Shown here: positions 1,142-22,745 of the stretch, piece after piece | Layout: each line of letters starts with the position of its first letter | Numbering within the stretch: position 1 is the stretch's first letter | Assembly: GCA_020631485.1 (NCBI GenBank) | Contig: JAHDHC010000011.1 | Location: forward strand, 1,762-45,139 | Reading direction: 5' to 3' | Length of the DNA: 43,378 nt | Source of the DNA: Candidatus Altimarinota bacterium | GTDB lineage: Bacteria; Patescibacteriota; Gracilibacteria; BD1-5; UBA6164 | The notes under the pieces: model-generated | The model's database searches: none | The model's input: the letters and a program-made list of their open reading frames with translations, nothing else | Told to the model about the DNA's origin: nothing | Made by a program: the position numbers and the translations under genes

Positions 1142-4100
1142 TTACTTTCCTAAGAGTTCTTTCCAGAAATTGATATCCTGTATCTTTTCCCATGAATCTT
1201 TAATCAGGACTTTAAACTCTTCAAAGTCTTCTGGAGAATAATCAACAGGGGTATAGGCATACTGTCCATCTTTTCCCTCTACAAAATCAAGCGCGAGCTC
1301 TCAGACAGAATAGTGTGTAGAAAAATCTGCATCATTTTCTGCGAGGAGCTTGTAGAAAAGAAGCTGACGATAATACTTCCCTTCTCGCATATCATCTTTT
1401 TTATTGCCGTATCTATCTATTCACTTTATTTTTCAAAGCGTTTTTATAGAACCTGTTTTATAGTCTACAAGAGCCACATATTCTTGGAGAGACATTCAGA
1501 GTTGAGCTCCTTTCCCTCACCCTTGCATCCCCTCTCCTTTAGAGGAAGGAGAAAGGCAAGAAGTGATGAGCTTTATCTTGTCGATTTTCCCAGTTATGGG
1601 AATTCAGTCAAAAACTATGTTTTTTGGACGAAAGTTATACTCCACTTCCAGTACTTCTTCACTTGTGTCTTGAAAATTTTCAAAATAGCCGGTAAGTCCA
1701 TCAATTCCCTTTTTTGTGAGTCTGAGTTTTTCCTCTGCAGTCAGTAACTGACTTGAGAGCAGAGCTTGAAATCTCTCAAGCATCTGATCAAGCTCTATAG
1801 GCGTTTTATTTATCTTTTTATTGCTAAACTCTTCGAGTACTTTGTGATACACGTTCCCAAAAATAGTAAACTCATTTCCCGTAAATGGGTATTTGTATAC
1901 AACATTTTGAAGAAATATAAAAGGGTCTTCAAGGAAGCTATTGAGATCAGTTGGACTGAGTTTATAGTTTTCTAAAAAGTCTTGGATATAGTCTATTTCT
2001 TCAGATGAAGTATGTATAAGCTTATTTGGCACGAGCACATGCTTTATATTGTCAGCAAGTAATGACTCATCAAGCTGTTTTGCTCAGAGCTCAGGTTTTA
2101 CTCAGATCTCAATCAAAAATGGACTATCGATGTATGGCTTGTTTCAGGCCCCTGCTGGTCTTGAAAAAGTGAGCGTTTTTTTGGCTCTCGTTATTGCGAC
2201 AAAAAAAAGTCTTCTATCCTCTTGGAGTGCTACTTCTTTTTCAGCCGATTTTTTATCTTTTTCATCCATTCATGCAAACTGGAGTCACTCTCAGCTGATT
2301 CAAAGAGGGAGTTTGAGCTTGTCAATCATCCTTTTTGATTCCCAATTTCCTCCATAAAGTCATGGGATAAAAACATGATCATATTCGAGTCATTTCGAAG
2401 CATGTGCTGTCAGGATTTCTATATCTGCATGTGATTTTTTGAGTACTTGTCGTGGTATGATGATCCTATACTTTTGATGCATCTGGAACTTTTCCAAAAC
2501 ATGAGAAATCCTAACTTCAGGATTCTTTTTTTGCAGATCCTTTACTTTGTTAAAAAAGGTATATATGTCTTCCAGATCCGAAAAATTCCCATAATTTTCT
2601 ATATATGCAATCAGTCCAATACGATCGATCATTTTTGAGATCAATAATCACATATTTCAAGTTTTGGCTTCGCTATTGAGCTCGATTAAAAGATCTCGAA
2701 AACTCAAAAGTTTCTTATAATCACGAAACTTAGTTTCCTGTCTGGTAGCAAAACTGAAGCTCTCTTCTTGTTCTCTGTACTGCTCTGCATAATCTATATC
2801 TATATTTTGAAATATTTCCCAGAAACTGAGCTTGAAACCATCACGAGAATAGTTCTTTTTATAGAGATCTCTATTGAGGGTGATGATGTCTATATTTTCT
2901 ACATCGATGATCTGTGATCTGAGTATATCTATAAGTTTTATGTCATCACTATGTGGATCGTGCACAAGCTGTATAAAATCGAGAAGAAACTGGACATAGG
3001 CATTTTCCAAAATATTTGTTTTGAGTTTTGATTCTACCTCGAGTCAAGAGATCTGAAAGAAATCAGTCCACTCTGCTACTTCTCTATTGCTTCTCACGAT
3101 TACAGCAAAGTTTTGCTTTTCTTTTTCTTGTTTTTGGAGTTCTTTGATAGATTCTACAACATAGCTTTTTTCTGAGAGTTCATCAGGGTGGATGAGATAT
3201 GTATTTTCATCAAGCAGGGCATATTCTGAACATGCTATGAGTTTTTTATCTAAGAAATCCAACCTGTTGACGAGTCTTTCAGAGTTATTTTCTATGAGTT
3301 TTGAGGAGAGATCAAGAATAGACTGACTAGATCTATAGTTCTTTTGCAACACTATAAACTGTGTAGTTGGGTACTTTGTATAAAAGTCCAGCATATTTTC
3401 GATATTTGCCCCCTGAAATCTGTAGATTGACTGATCGTCATCTCCTACGACCATGATGTTTTTTTGCTCACCAACAGAGAGTATCATATCCATGATTTCA
3501 TTTTGAGGATTGTTGGTATCTTGGTACTCATCAATCATCAAAAACTGAAACTTTTCTGCATAGTACATACTTAGTTCCTCATCTATTCTCATTTTTTCGA
3601 CGACAAAGTTTATCATATCTGAAAAATCATAGAGTCTTTGTGATTTAAGGTATTGGCTATACTCCAGATATATCTGTTGGAGTTCGTTGAGTTTTCAGAT
3701 ATGTTTTTTATAGCTTTCAGTATCTTTGAGTGTACGTTTCTTGAGATCACGGATCCTTTTATTGGTCTTGAGAGCTTCGAGTTTCTGATCGTATTCTTCT
3801 CGTTGTTCAGCTATGATACGACCAAATTTTTCTGGGCTAATTCATTCACCTTTTAGTTTTCAAATCCTATCTTTTATATCACGCAGATACATCTGCCTAT
3901 CATGCGCGTTAAATAAATACTTGAGCCTATCCTCTGCTATGGCTGATTCTAAAATAGTACTGAGTGCTTGAAGTGCATCGATATCATCAATCGTATCAGA
4001 AGCTTTAAACTCAGAAAATTTTTCTGGAAAACTCATGATAACATCTTGAGCAAAGGCATGAATCGTTGTGATCTTTATCTTGTAAGCATCAGTCCCGATA

Positions 4101-4339
4101 AACTGTGCGAGTCTTTTTTTTATAGCAATTACTCCAGCTTCTGTAAAGGTCGTAATCAATATATTTTCAGGATCAGCAATACCTGATTGTATAATATTGG
4201 CTGTCCTCATACCAATAATCTGCGTCTTCCCCGTTCATGGACCAGCCACTACCATAATAGGGCCATACATCTCTCCTACAACCTTTTTCTGCTCATCATT
4301 GAGCATCTCATAGTTTTTTTTAAAATCAAATTCTTGCAT
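1142..4339 (-). CDS. UvrD/Rep-family helicase with C-terminal PD-(D/E)XK (RecB-like) nuclease domain, 1065 aa
   Basis: An ATP-dependent superfamily 1A helicase fused to a nuclease, expected to act in double-strand break processing or recombinational repair. Walker A is GPGTGKT at residues 33-39, with Gly35 encoded by UGA. Later come DEYQDT (Walker B), GDDDQSIYRFQG (motif III) and other UvrD motifs. The last ~200 residues hold GKIDKI and VDYKTG, the RecB-type nuclease motifs. The frame from ATG 4339 to TAA 1142 is open only when UGA is read as Gly. Between the two nuclease motifs lies an in-frame run of about 18-20 residues encoded by a palindromic repeat (1511-1555). Whether the nuclease still folds is unknown. 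Overall architecture resembles AddB-like or CPR 'UvrD-PDDEXK' proteins; the exact ortholog is uncertain. Confidence 0.9.
1511..1555. repeat. Palindromic repeat (CCCTCTCC-type) inside the helicase-nuclease gene
   Basis: CCCTCACCC, then CCCCTCTCC, TTTAGA and GGAAGGAGA form an imperfect palindrome related to the repeats that border the DUF559 cassette in recG. It keeps the reading frame of the host gene and adds a Ser/Pro/Gly-rich peptide between two nuclease motifs. Confidence 0.7.
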
Positions 4340-19308: not shown

Positions 19309-20193
19309 ATGAAAAAAATCACTCTTCTTGCAATAGCTCTTTTCCTTTCTTTCTCATCTCCTAATTCTCATGCTGAAATATCAGGAGCTACTGAGCAAAA
19401 AATAAATACTGCACTTGAAGTCTTTTTTCAGTCATTTGAATCAACAGAAAGTGTAGAAAAAAATCTTGAAAAGTATAAGTCTCTAAATACCAAGATAGAT
19501 CTCTTACTCACAAGAAAAAGTGGAAGAGAAAAGGAAATCTTGCAATACATAAAACTCAAAGCAATAGAGCGTCGTGAAGAGATTTACAAGGATTATATTC
19601 CAGATGATATTATCATTTTTGAAACACATTGAACTTGATTACAGGCGTGATATTCTGAGAGTAGTGGAGATTTTTTCCTACAATATGACAATAAAAACCT
19701 CATTAAAATATCTTTAACAAACGATATGGGCTGAGTAGTATGAGATTTGTGAGAATACACAAGTATGATAGATAAGGCTCATAACTACTTTTCTCATATA
19801 GACATAGAAGCACGCAAAAATTTTACAAATGAAGAAGAAGATTTTATAGTACTCAGAGACAAGAATCTATTTTTCTATAACCATATAGTTGTAAATGTAG
19901 AAACTGGCCGTTCATACATCGTAGGAAAACAATTATCTGATGTAATAATATATGACTCCTACATCTTGTGAATACTTAACGCTTATACGAGTAATATCAT
20001 AATAACCGTATATGATAAAGAAAGCTGAGAAAAGCTGTGAGCGAGTAATACACTTTTTGTCGTTAACACTGAAGTATCATTTGAATGAGCAGATGGTGAA
20101 TTCATATACTTTTCTGTAATTTATCAGTGAGAGAAAACTACAAATCTAAAGCTTGATTTAGAAAATTGGGAACTTACTGAGCTTTTAGATTAA
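19309..20193 (+). CDS. Exported hypothetical protein, 294 aa
   Basis: Signal peptide of ~22 residues (MKKITLLAIALFLSFSSPNS then HA|E). A helical, charged segment follows (residues ~25-100), then a region that alternates short strands. About a dozen glycines are UGA. No family is recognised. Its TAA (20191-20193) overlaps the convergent recG stop (20192-20190) by two bases. A decayed copy of the recG tail lies upstream of its start, which suggests the gene arrived by insertion or local duplication next to recG. Confidence 0.75.
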
Positions 20194-22745
20194 GATTTGT
20201 CTTCAAACATCCCTTCTATATCTTCTCTGATTTGAGAAATGAGCTCGAGATCTCTGAGGTCTGCAACTTTGAGATCAGGGACTCAGGATTGTCTGAGCCC
20301 ATATACTTCTCCAGGTCATCTGATCTCAAGATCTATTTCTGAGAGCTCGAATCCATTGTTTGTCTTTTCCATTGCTTTCAATCTATCTGTATAGTTTCAG
20401 GCGCTTGGAAATAGATAACAATACGACTGGTGTTCTCCCCTCCCCACTCTTCCTCGAAACTGATGAAGTTGTGAGAGCCCAAATCTTTCCGCTCACTCGA
20501 TGCACATGATCGAAGCATTCGGAATATCAACCCCAACTTCGATTACTGAAGTACTTGAGAGCACTTGGATCTTATTGTCTTTAAAATCTGACATAATTTG
20601 TTCTTTTTCTTTTGCCTTCATCTTCCCATGTACAAGTCAAACTTTGAATGGAGCAAATATTTCGATTAAAGATTCATATGTAGAAATAGCATTTGCAAGA
20701 TCAATTTTTTCAGATTCTTCCACAAGTGGTGAAACCCAAAAAGCCTGTCGTCACTTCTCGAGCTGGCTTCTGATAAAGTTCTCTATGTCTCTTCTGTTGT
20801 TTTCTGTTTTTGCAACTTTTGTAAATATCTCTTTTCTTCATTTTGGATATTCTGAGATGATCGATAGGTCTTGATCACCATACAGTGTCAGAGCAAGAGT
20901 ACGTGGTATTGGAGTTGCTGTCATATTGAGACTATGTGGTATGAGTCCACTACGATTTCAAAGACCATTTTCTAGAACTTCTCTTTGTTTTACCCCAAAC
21001 CTATGCTGTTCGTCGATAATTACGTATCACAAATTGTGAAACAGCACATCTTCTTGTACCAGAGCATGCGTTCCAATAATGACATCGAGGTTCCCTGAAA
21101 CAAGCCTTTCCTTGATAGCTTTTTTGTTTTTCGCACTGACACTTCATACAAGCAGTTCTGAACTGATACCAAACTCAAACAACAGATTTTGCATCCCTGA
21201 AAAGTGCTGACGAGCGAGTATTTCTGTCGGAGCCATGATCGCAACTTGGATACGTGATGTGTGTAATGCTCAAGACTTAGCTACTATAGTCTCATTACCT
21301 CACCCTAGTTTTATACTAGCCTCTCCATTCTCATCACCTCACCCTAACCCTCTCCTTAGAGGAGAGGGGATATAAGGATAGATTTTTTCAAATATTTTCG
21401 ATATATCCTCATAAGCATCCGCACTTTTTATTCTTTCGACGTTGATTCAAGATCAGTTAATTACTTCATCCCTTAAAGCATCATATTCTTTTTGATTATC
21501 GTGGATTTTTCCATCGAGTTCTACTACAAGTTTTATCTCATCACAATAAAAATCTGCAATATATCTCCCAATCGGATGTTGTCTACGAAATTTCAATCAT
21601 TCAAACTGCCTATTTCTTAAAACTTCCCACAATATTTTTTCTGAATCTGTTCAAAAGCTTCTCAAAGTCTTTGATAAATCTTTTACATAACTTGGGACAG
21701 TTTTATATAAAGTTCTCATTCCTTCTTCTCCCTCTCCTCTAAGGAGAGGGTTGGGGTGAGGTTCTTGTTGAGGGTTGGGGGTGAGTTCTTGCTGACTTAA
21801 ATCAGAATCTTCTCCACTTTTGAGTATGGCATGAATTGCTGAAATCAGGGCAACAATAGTCTTTCCAGTTCAAACATCTCACTCTACAAGTCGTTGCATC
21901 GCGTGAGTTTTCTCCATATCTTTCAGCACTTGAAACAAGACAATTTTTTGATGATTTGTGAGTTCAAATGGGAGTTTTGTAAGAAGATCTTTTATAAACT
22001 CTACATCCATAGGGATTGCAATACTCTTCCCTTCACTATGAGCAAAATTCTCATATTTTTTTGAAATTGCTCAGAAATTTATATCGTAGAGTTCTTCATA
22101 TGCGAGTCTGTATTTTGCCAATTCAATGTCATGCATATTTTTAGGGAAATGCACTTTATAGATAGCTTCTTTTTTTGAGATAAATGCATATTTTTCCATG
22201 ATATTATCAGGAAGTGTCTCTGAGTAGCCTTGTATATATTTTTCTAATAACTTTATCTTGGGCTGTAGCCATTTACTCGGAATATAGTTTATATCAGAAT
22301 ATACTGGAACTATTTCTCATCACACTTTTGAAAGATCCGTTTCTGTATCTGGGCTCTGAAAAGTAACGGTTCAAAATGCATATCTTACCTTTCAGGTTAT
22401 AAGTATCTTTTTTCCAATATATGCCTGCATCTGACTTGCAAAGTATTTTCTATTGAACCATACAGCTTCTGCCATAAATCCATTTTCATCTTCAAATACT
22501 GCCTTTGAAAGGAGTTTATTTCCTGCTGTTTTTTTAGTATCAAGTGATAAAAGCTTAACTAAACAGGTATTTTTTTCTTTTACATTGATCAAAGAAAAGT
22601 TTTGCAATACTTCTGTCCTATCTTCATAATCTCTTGGATAATGCTCTAATAGGTCTCATACTGTTAAAAAACCAGCCTTGGCCAAAGCCTTTATATAGTT
22701 ATCAGTAGTTCTGAGAGTAGATTTTGTTAATGGTGTTGAGAGCAT
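20190..22745 (-). CDS. recG: ATP-dependent DNA helicase RecG carrying an in-frame DUF559 nuclease insert, 851 aa
   Basis: RecG remodels stalled forks and Holliday junctions. The wedge domain comes first, then Walker A GDVGTGKT (residues 289-296; the first two Gly are UGA), the insert (about residues 312-493), [10 protein letters not shown] (motif Ia), GTHALVQ, DEQHRFG (motif II, with Gln), [12 protein letters not shown] (motif III), [17 protein letters not shown] and [12 protein letters not shown]. Without the insert the length is about 670, normal for RecG. The insert encodes a DUF559-type endonuclease fold flanked by palindromes that are translated as Pro/Leu/Arg/Gly-rich linkers. No stop or frameshift is present, so the whole protein can be made as one chain. 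Start is ATG 22745, next to a perfect inverted repeat. Confidence 0.92.
21337..21369. repeat. Terminal palindromic repeat of the DUF559 cassette (3' side in recG)
   Basis: CCTCACCCTAA then CCCTCTCC (21348-21355), TTAGA, GGAGAGGG (21361-21368). A second arm copy, CCTCACCCTAG, lies at about 21298. Its reverse complement closely matches the repeat at 21730. Confidence 0.85.
21730..21785. repeat. Terminal palindromic repeat of the DUF559 cassette (5' side in recG)
   Basis: CCCTCTCC (21730-21737), TCTAA, GGAGAGGG (21743-21750), then TTGGGGTGAGG and a second TTGGGGGTGAG arm. Inverted relative to the repeat at 21337. Confidence 0.85.

Follow-up and report, generated by a model that had tools for sequence, protein, structure and literature searches.

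DUF559 nucleases appear to have been inserted repeatedly, in frame, into one loop of RecG and into other basic genes of Gracilibacteria

The recG gene of a Candidatus Altimarinota bacterium is read, without interruption, through a nuclease domain lodged within its helicase core. Within the stretch of 43,378 nucleotides that we analyzed (contig JAHDHC010000011.1; hereafter the window), this locus raises the question of whether RecG has recruited a nuclease or hosts a copy of an element that enters genes and is translated along with them. Judging from the comparison of sequences, we consider it probable that the insert is a copy of a non-splicing, host-translated, in-frame mobile nuclease element, made up of a DUF559 domain and inverted palindromes. 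DUF559 indeed appears to have been inserted repeatedly, with the frame intact, in one loop of RecG and in other basic genes of Gracilibacteria. Below, G numbers designate genomes (G000 is that of the window) and L numbers designate loci.

The insert in RecG of the window

The RecG protein of the window is the sole full-length RecG match in G000, and RecG profile models align with it in two stretches, the second of which begins at residue 484 (features in Table 1). Its segment spanning Walker A (GDVGTGKT) through motif Ia, both included, is 226 residues long, against 39 to 47 (mode 44) in relatives with an empty site. DUF559 (PF04480) is the only Pfam domain above cut-off within the insert, with 107.4 bits for a gathering cut-off of 20.6. 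When TGA is read as glycine, which concerns 25 codons of recG, including four within the DUF559 domain, the frame is open across the whole insert. These results bear out a first-pass annotation, which had placed a DUF559 insert of about 182 residues between Walker A and motif Ia and had seen it introduce neither a stop nor a frameshift.

The same annotation had described the insert as bounded by two palindromes that are translated as linkers. Both palindromes fit the pattern CCCTCTCC-N5-GGAGAGGG exactly and do encode linker residues, but they are not the boundaries of the insert: they sit inside inverted arms of 43 nucleotides, and more repeat copies extend outside the arms. A search of the window for this pattern with up to 3 mismatches returned 3 matches, the third with 3 mismatches, compared with 0.02 in shuffled sequences. 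The repeat in the UvrD-family helicase, at window positions 1500 to 1560, is of the CCTCACCC...CCCTCTCC kind. The RecG copy of the window has an ATG of its own, 3' of the first palindrome. A target-site duplication was looked for at the recG insertion site, and nothing clean was found.

Table 1. Features of the recG locus and a related repeat, in window coordinates
Feature	Position	Strand	Basis
recG ORF, host gene, 851 aa, code 25	20190..22745	-	ORF reading and RecG model matches
Extra in-frame stretch absent from empty RecG alleles, about E311-S496, net ~182 aa	21258..21815	-	Comparison to alleles with an empty site
DUF559 nuclease domain, RecG residues 353-456	21378..21689	-	Pfam E 4.5e-31; AF2-predicted fold, best match 3hrl
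Palindrome, upstream end (recG sense), translated within PLLRGEG	21730..21750		CCCTCTCCTCTAAGGAGAGGG, exact pattern fit
Palindrome, downstream end (recG sense), translated within SPLRRGLGG	21348..21368		CCCTCTCCTTAGAGGAGAGGG, exact pattern fit
Inverted repeat arm, upstream end, 43 nt, 88% complementary to the other arm	21720..21762		Repeat comparison
Inverted repeat arm, downstream end, 43 nt	21336..21378		Repeat comparison
Outer repeat in N-terminal linker, two tandem copies, 79% identical	21746..21793		Repeat comparison
Outer repeat in C-terminal linker, two copies, 80% identical	21278..21346		Repeat comparison
Decayed nuclease-less repeat copy, in frame in UvrD-family helicase (ORF 1142-4339, minus)	1500..1560	-	CLSPSSKGEGMQGGGKGAQLG; by eye

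An AF2 model of the RecG fusion, obtained with 38 aligned RecGs (mean pLDDT 80, pTM 0.66), predicts a confident RecG and a folded nuclease at about residues 351 to 457. Between the two lie linkers (313 to 347 and 460 to 495) with pLDDT below 50, which are predicted to be unstructured. The nuclease domain modeled alone (pLDDT 84.5) is predicted to have a Vsr-like nuclease fold. Its best Foldseek match is the DUF559-type protein 3hrl (E 7e-7), which is also the sole strong match in a sequence search of the PDB; two chains of the Toxoplasma mitoribosome come next, and the fourth match is 3r3p, the catalytic domain of I-Bth0305I (E 2.5e-3, TM 0.61-0.63 by query). Weaker matches include PvuRts1I, Vsr (1vsr, E 0.19) and TnsA (E 0.34).

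Empty and filled sites across the order

We searched RecG in 77 genomes of the order to which the window belongs. The insertion site is visible in 72 of them, a count that includes six RecG loci read separately, all six empty, and it is out of view in G036, G039, G044, G050 and G067. Fourteen genomes carry DUF559 at the site and 56 have an empty site; of the two others, G069 has two inverted palindromes separated by a short spacer, with no nuclease, and G020 has a short unrelated extension. Since 14 separate genomes carry DUF559 at this loop, a misassembly is unlikely. The search for empty sites had been proposed at first pass, and with 56 of 72 sites empty and sister species that differ, conservation of the insert throughout the clade is ruled out. 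On a tree of the host RecG computed with the insert omitted (63 rows, 13 of them filled; the filled allele of G055 ends at the end of a contig and is absent), 10 changes of the filled state are required, and starred branches force 7 or more of them. G054, which is filled, and G051, which is empty, are sisters (98, starred), as are the repeat-only G069 and the empty G070 (99, starred). Furthermore, the genus g9 has three different RecG inserts (G052, G054 and G055) as well as three empty alleles (G051, G053 and G056), and the allele of G054 retains, 5' of another cassette, a stretch that matches the beginning of the G052 element exactly.

The order contains 119 DUF559 matches, distributed over 45 of the 77 genomes; 18, mostly partial or weak, were left out, and the remaining 101 correspond to 100 distinct domains. 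Thirty-four of these are internal and in frame within a host gene, five are apparently N-terminal fusions to a downstream gene and 61 are free. Besides the 14 copies in the main loop of RecG, one lies in a second RecG loop (G007), four lie at a fixed loop of MnmA, after ATGHYAR, four at a fixed loop of MiaB, after GQNVNSYGK..LWN, and two in a NOP2/Sun-family methylase, and one each is found in RecQ, TsaD, RarA, a NadD-like protein, an NMNAT-like protein, Elp3, LeuRS, IleRS and PriA. This makes eleven in-frame places in addition to the main RecG, MnmA and MiaB loops, and 13 gene kinds overall. The identity of the hosts is backed by NCBIfam, except for the NMNAT-like host (L144), which was read by eye. 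Compared as sequences, the genomes thus show in-frame insertion, empty sites, recurrence at fixed loops and more than one nuclease lineage at a single site. The empty sites in sister species, the different lineages at the same loop and the 13 gene kinds sustain the earlier description of the insert as a selfish-looking in-frame element.

An ATG at most 35 codons upstream of the core is present in 10 of the 34 internal copies, that of the window included, compared with 57 of the 61 free copies; when GTG and TTG are counted too, the figure for internal copies rises to 25 of 34, which a stretch of 35 codons can give by chance. The motifs [VIA]DF and E[ILV]DGxxH, which are of catalytic type, are kept in all 34 internal copies. 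Because these motifs are kept and an own ATG is rare, the internal copies look active and most of them seem to depend on translation of the host. Twenty-five of the 61 free copies fit the motif pattern, but it was written from the internal copies, so that 34/34 against 25/61 is no measure of decay. As for gene breakage, 7 of the 57 free copies with enough flanking sequence have at least 100 open codons on both sides on one strand, and no split host gene was recognized by eye in these seven, five seemingly lying between two different neighboring genes and two apparently flanked by spurious frames.

In-frame insertion in a loop is not, as such, unique to the DUF559 element, given that unrelated domains are also inserted in these genomes. 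By eye, the second loop of RecG in G049 (L090), where G007 (L098) has its DUF559, is occupied in frame by a stretch resembling a GNAT acetyltransferase. LeuRS of G049 (L146) contains a NUDIX-like stretch (by eye) as well as DUF559, and IleRS of G007 (L152) combines DUF559 with a stretch that by eye resembles an alpha/beta-hydrolase and with a domain that NCBIfam shows to be phosphoglycerate-mutase-like. Both genomes seem to tolerate whole enzymes within synthetases.

Palindromes and nuclease lineages

The first-pass annotation had suggested searching for DUF559 genes flanked by palindromes, and such genes proved frequent. Hairpins were called as strict perfect stems within about 130 nucleotides of DUF559, with windows shifted along the same loci as controls. 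A hairpin accompanies 74 of the 100 domains on one side or more, two-sided hairpins are seen at 46 and a matching pair at 34, compared with at most 29, 0 and 0 in 550 control windows; a perfect hairpin is thus missing on either side in 26 of the 100, and 54 do not have one on both. The 34 internal copies have a hairpin on at least one side in 25 cases and on both sides in 14, and several others have imperfect stems. Paired hairpins are often reverse complements of each other, as in CTCCCTTTGGAAAAGGGAG and CTCCCTTTTCCAAAGGGAG, and, by eye, the termini CCCCCTATC...GATAGGGGG and CCTCACCC...GGGTGAGG recur.

It had also been suggested that the ends of the element are adapted to stay open in frame, a proposal that did not hold. 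Of the 39 hairpins at in-frame copies, 34 have arms made only of pyrimidines, but so do 74 of the 81 at other copies. Hairpins open in all six frames number 13 of 39 at in-frame copies, 14 of 81 at the other copies, 20 of 54 among controls and 31 of 120 after shuffling. Fully open hairpins being overall no commoner than shuffled ones, we rejected stop-free palindromes as a coding adaptation. The feature that marks the in-frame copies is the rarity of an own ATG, although the copy of the window has one.

A tree of the 100 DUF559 domains was built from 126 columns; 50 of its 97 inner branches are open. RecG inserts need 10 changes on this tree, of which at least 3 are forced by starred branches. 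Several of them pair with copies in recQ (86), miaB (90), leuS (92) and priA (91), and in one starred set (96) four recG copies are mixed with copies in leuS, priA and tsaD. The recG inserts L034, L035, L050 and L068, which come from four genera, form one starred set, and two DUF559 subfamilies occupy the same recG loop. The recG label is nonetheless somewhat clustered, an equally low value being reached in 5 of 500 shuffles, so that descent with loss may account for part of the pattern. Clade C comprises 36 rows (support 99), with 33 free and 3 N-terminal copies. Group A, a label for the rows that are left of a starred set of 58 after clade C and not a supported single clade, has 22 of its 22 copies internal and none free among the copies read in the order. 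The other 42 rows are mixed by subclade.

Palindrome type goes with nuclease lineage. The distance between palindrome arms correlates with that on the DUF559 tree (Mantel r 0.34, 0 of 5000 permutations, 72 rows), and a CTCTCC arm is present in 13 of the 14 group A copies with a hairpin compared with 1 of 60 others. In whole genomes, CTCTCC palindromes number 400 (0 for the reversed control), of which the 18 genomes that contain group A account for 314 (median 12 versus 0, p 6e-7), and CTCCCTT palindromes number 248 (5 for the reversed control) and are commoner in genomes with clade C (p 2e-7); these p values, like those that follow, treat genomes as independent and ignore kinship. As clade C and group A co-occur, a weaker link also joins each palindrome type to the opposite clade (p 0.0015 and 0.0016). 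In genomes that lack the other clade, the links of group A and of clade C give p 0.02 and p 0.01, and that between CTCTCC and clade C gives p 0.50. Six genomes have 4 to 15 CTCTCC palindromes and no group A among the copies read. By sequence comparison, then, the family shows paired terminal hairpins at about half of its copies, a linkage between palindrome and lineage, catalytic-type motifs and a rare own ATG.

Palindromes also occur without a nuclease. G000 contains 20 CCTCTCC palindromes, of which two are the RecG pair and 18 lie away from the RecG cassette. Fifteen of the 20 are inside genes, and all 15 are in frame by reading: two in RecG, three in LeuRS, two in Mfd and one each in SufS, RNase HII, a CAP-like protein (no NCBIfam match), IleRS, ThrRS, QueA, ObgE and ProRS. 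The five others look intergenic, and two of these (L020 and L021) adjoin tRNA-like sequence, by eye. In G068, a free DUF559 element of 434 to 448 bp is multicopy and lies within a larger repeated unit (L188, L190, L193, L194 and L195). Several of its copies are located between CCCTCCCCCTGCGGGTA and TACCCGCAGGGGGAGGG, with a possible TA target-site duplication at some copies in the middle of a palindrome; no empty allele of this multicopy element was seen.

Outside the order, we scanned species genomes for the best 80 of 419 relatives, a set defined by closeness to group A rather than sampled at random, and read 30 further loci from other Patescibacteria; nine Gracilibacteria/Absconditabacteria loci were excluded from the hairpin test and four copies had too little flank. 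Among these best 80 of 419 relatives, copies of other phyla have hairpins on both sides in 32 of 70 cases versus 2 of 375 controls (matching pair, 23 versus 0), with flanked examples in Cyanobacteria, Chloroflexi, Armatimonadota, Bacteroidota, Spirochaetota, Verrucomicrobiota and Brevundimonas. For the other Patescibacteria, the figures are 22 of 29 versus 1 of 164 (matching pair, 13 versus 0). Ten of about fifteen long ORFs with an internal DUF559 were searched for identity: eight match restriction-modification families (MmeI/Eco57I, HsdM/N6 methylase and type ISP), one matches DUF1156 and one an aminotransferase. The searched internal loci of other phyla (L211, L214, L215, L241, L246, L263, L266 and L271) are mostly restriction-modification proteins. 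In the Fimbriimonadales KatS3mg016 and HRbin15 (L226 and L227), DUF559 lies in ORFs of 748 and 1335 aa, and no hairpin was detected.

Origin and meaning of the element

That the element moves is what we infer, and the support is comparative throughout. The alternative raised at first pass, a domesticated fusion in which RecG recruited the nuclease once as a useful domain that many lineages then lost, would suit a DNA-repair protein, the preservation of the catalytic-type motifs in every internal copy and the single starred set formed by RecG inserts of four genera. We judge it very improbable, and unsupported for RecG, in view of the patchy, polyphyletic inserts from two subfamilies, the three different inserts beside three empty sites in genus g9, the paired hairpins at the insert ends and the similar cassettes in tRNA-modification enzymes, tRNA synthetases and an RNA methylase. 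Even less credible is an excision of the insert by protein or RNA splicing, that is, an unrecognized intein or intron. Although the end arms are complementary over 43 nucleotides and could pair, the earlier observation that neither is visible was upheld: the Rfam search of recG gave a single match, of E 0.18 and far under the family threshold, hence no known intron; no junction residues were conserved by eye in the 13 RecG inserts with both junctions visible; and all RecG inserts have an open frame, which RNA splicing would not require.

A more serious contender, though still unlikely in our opinion, is strict homing, in which the nuclease cuts conserved recG (or mnmA, or miaB) and spreads only between homologous alleles by horizontal transfer, in the manner of an intein. 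The resemblance to the homing endonuclease I-Bth0305I, the starred set of L034, L035, L050 and L068 and the fixed insertion points beside conserved motifs (14 in recG, 4 in mnmA and 4 in miaB) speak for it; these points, however, lie in length-variable loops, where tolerance alone would lead one to expect them. Against strict homing, several recG inserts have their closest kin in other genes, members of two subfamilies are found in the one recG loop, and palindromes without a nuclease turn up in many different genes, all of which suggests that there are jumps to new genes as well. Conversely, the palindromes could be an independent repeat, like REP or the Rickettsia palindromic elements, moved by another enzyme and carrying DUF559 as a passenger, as the 18 CCTCTCC palindromes of G000 away from the RecG cassette and the genomes with such palindromes and no group A among the copies read might suggest. 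We find this quite improbable, given that the type of palindrome tracks the lineage of the nuclease in group A and in clade C taken separately, and that DUF559 of other phyla, within the best 80 of 419 relatives, has flanking palindromes of the same style.

Our working model of an in-frame mobile nuclease element is the following. The element would enter protein-coding genes with the frame preserved, and the host ribosome would translate through it without any splicing, so that RecG would gain a nuclease bead on two floppy Pro/Gly-rich linkers and would presumably retain its activity. DUF559 would be the enzyme that moves the element, recognizing and cutting cognate palindromes or a site near the loop-coding sequence, after which repair would copy the cassette in, as in homing; nuclease-less palindromes may spread likewise. 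The free copies of G068 located mid-palindrome suggest that palindromes may serve as landing sites. Copies would survive only where the host protein tolerates them, which would explain why the surviving insertions are in loops and in frame; the preference for loops may mean simply that tolerated insertions are the ones that survive, or that the loops contain a homing target, or both may apply.

Parts of this picture recall known systems. Inteins with a homing endonuclease place a nuclease in frame in conserved proteins, with a patchy distribution and recurrence at fixed points. The DUF559 insert shares these traits, but it has neither a splicing domain nor constant junction residues, lies in length-variable loops and would stay in the mature protein. 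In the REPIN/RAYT system, palindromes in inverted pairs are linked to an enzyme and many copies lack it. Inverted palindrome pairs, enzyme-less ones included, are found here too, as in the repeat-only RecG allele of G069; the enzyme is, however, a DUF559 nuclease and not the RAYT (HUH) transposase, and 15 of the 20 palindromes of G000 are genic. Rickettsia palindromic elements, for which the papers of Ogata are reportedly the original reports, resemble by their description the palindromes of G000, lying in frame within functional genes as do all 15 genic ones. According to the accessible portions of two articles, they insert in frame in unrelated genes and are translated with the host, and no enzyme is named there (PMC10969869, PMC3733652); here, the palindrome has a nuclease-bearing form and its type is linked to the nuclease lineage.

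A DUF559 gene has been assigned to the EDxHD family, as far as the available text of the source goes (PMC9403480), and EDxHD homing endonucleases such as I-Bth0305I are described, in the part of the article available, as extended multi-domain proteins (PMC3943268). The predicted structure of the DUF559 of the window suggests a fold related to that of I-Bth0305I and Vsr, but, compared with the multi-domain enzymes of that partial account (PMC3943268), the insert has no intron match, intein or further Pfam domain. In-frame palindromes (Rickettsia), DUF559 with EDxHD and palindromes with an enzyme (REP/REPIN) are known separately, and we found no paper joining them or linking DUF559 to palindromic ends or in-frame insertion in the literature searched, outside of which lay most subscription papers and the bioRxiv preprints; two papers that mention both DUF559 and palindromes deal, judging by their titles, with other subjects.

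We are nearly evenly divided on a broader proposal, in which DUF559 and its cognate inverted palindromes would constitute a widespread class of bacterial mobile elements. Group A would then live in frame in essential genes, having for the most part lost an ATG of its own and being produced chiefly or exclusively within host proteins; it would be a non-splicing counterpart of inteins and the missing type of enzyme for in-frame palindromic repeats. Since the repeats are accompanied here by a candidate enzyme, and palindrome type agrees with the lineage of that enzyme, the spread of in-frame repeats becomes directly testable. If our reading is true, a nuclease can persist as an unspliced additional domain of essential proteins, which would help to explain the DUF559 fusions and the PNPLPxGEG-type peptides seen in predicted proteins and would constitute a natural route for the in-frame insertion of domains.
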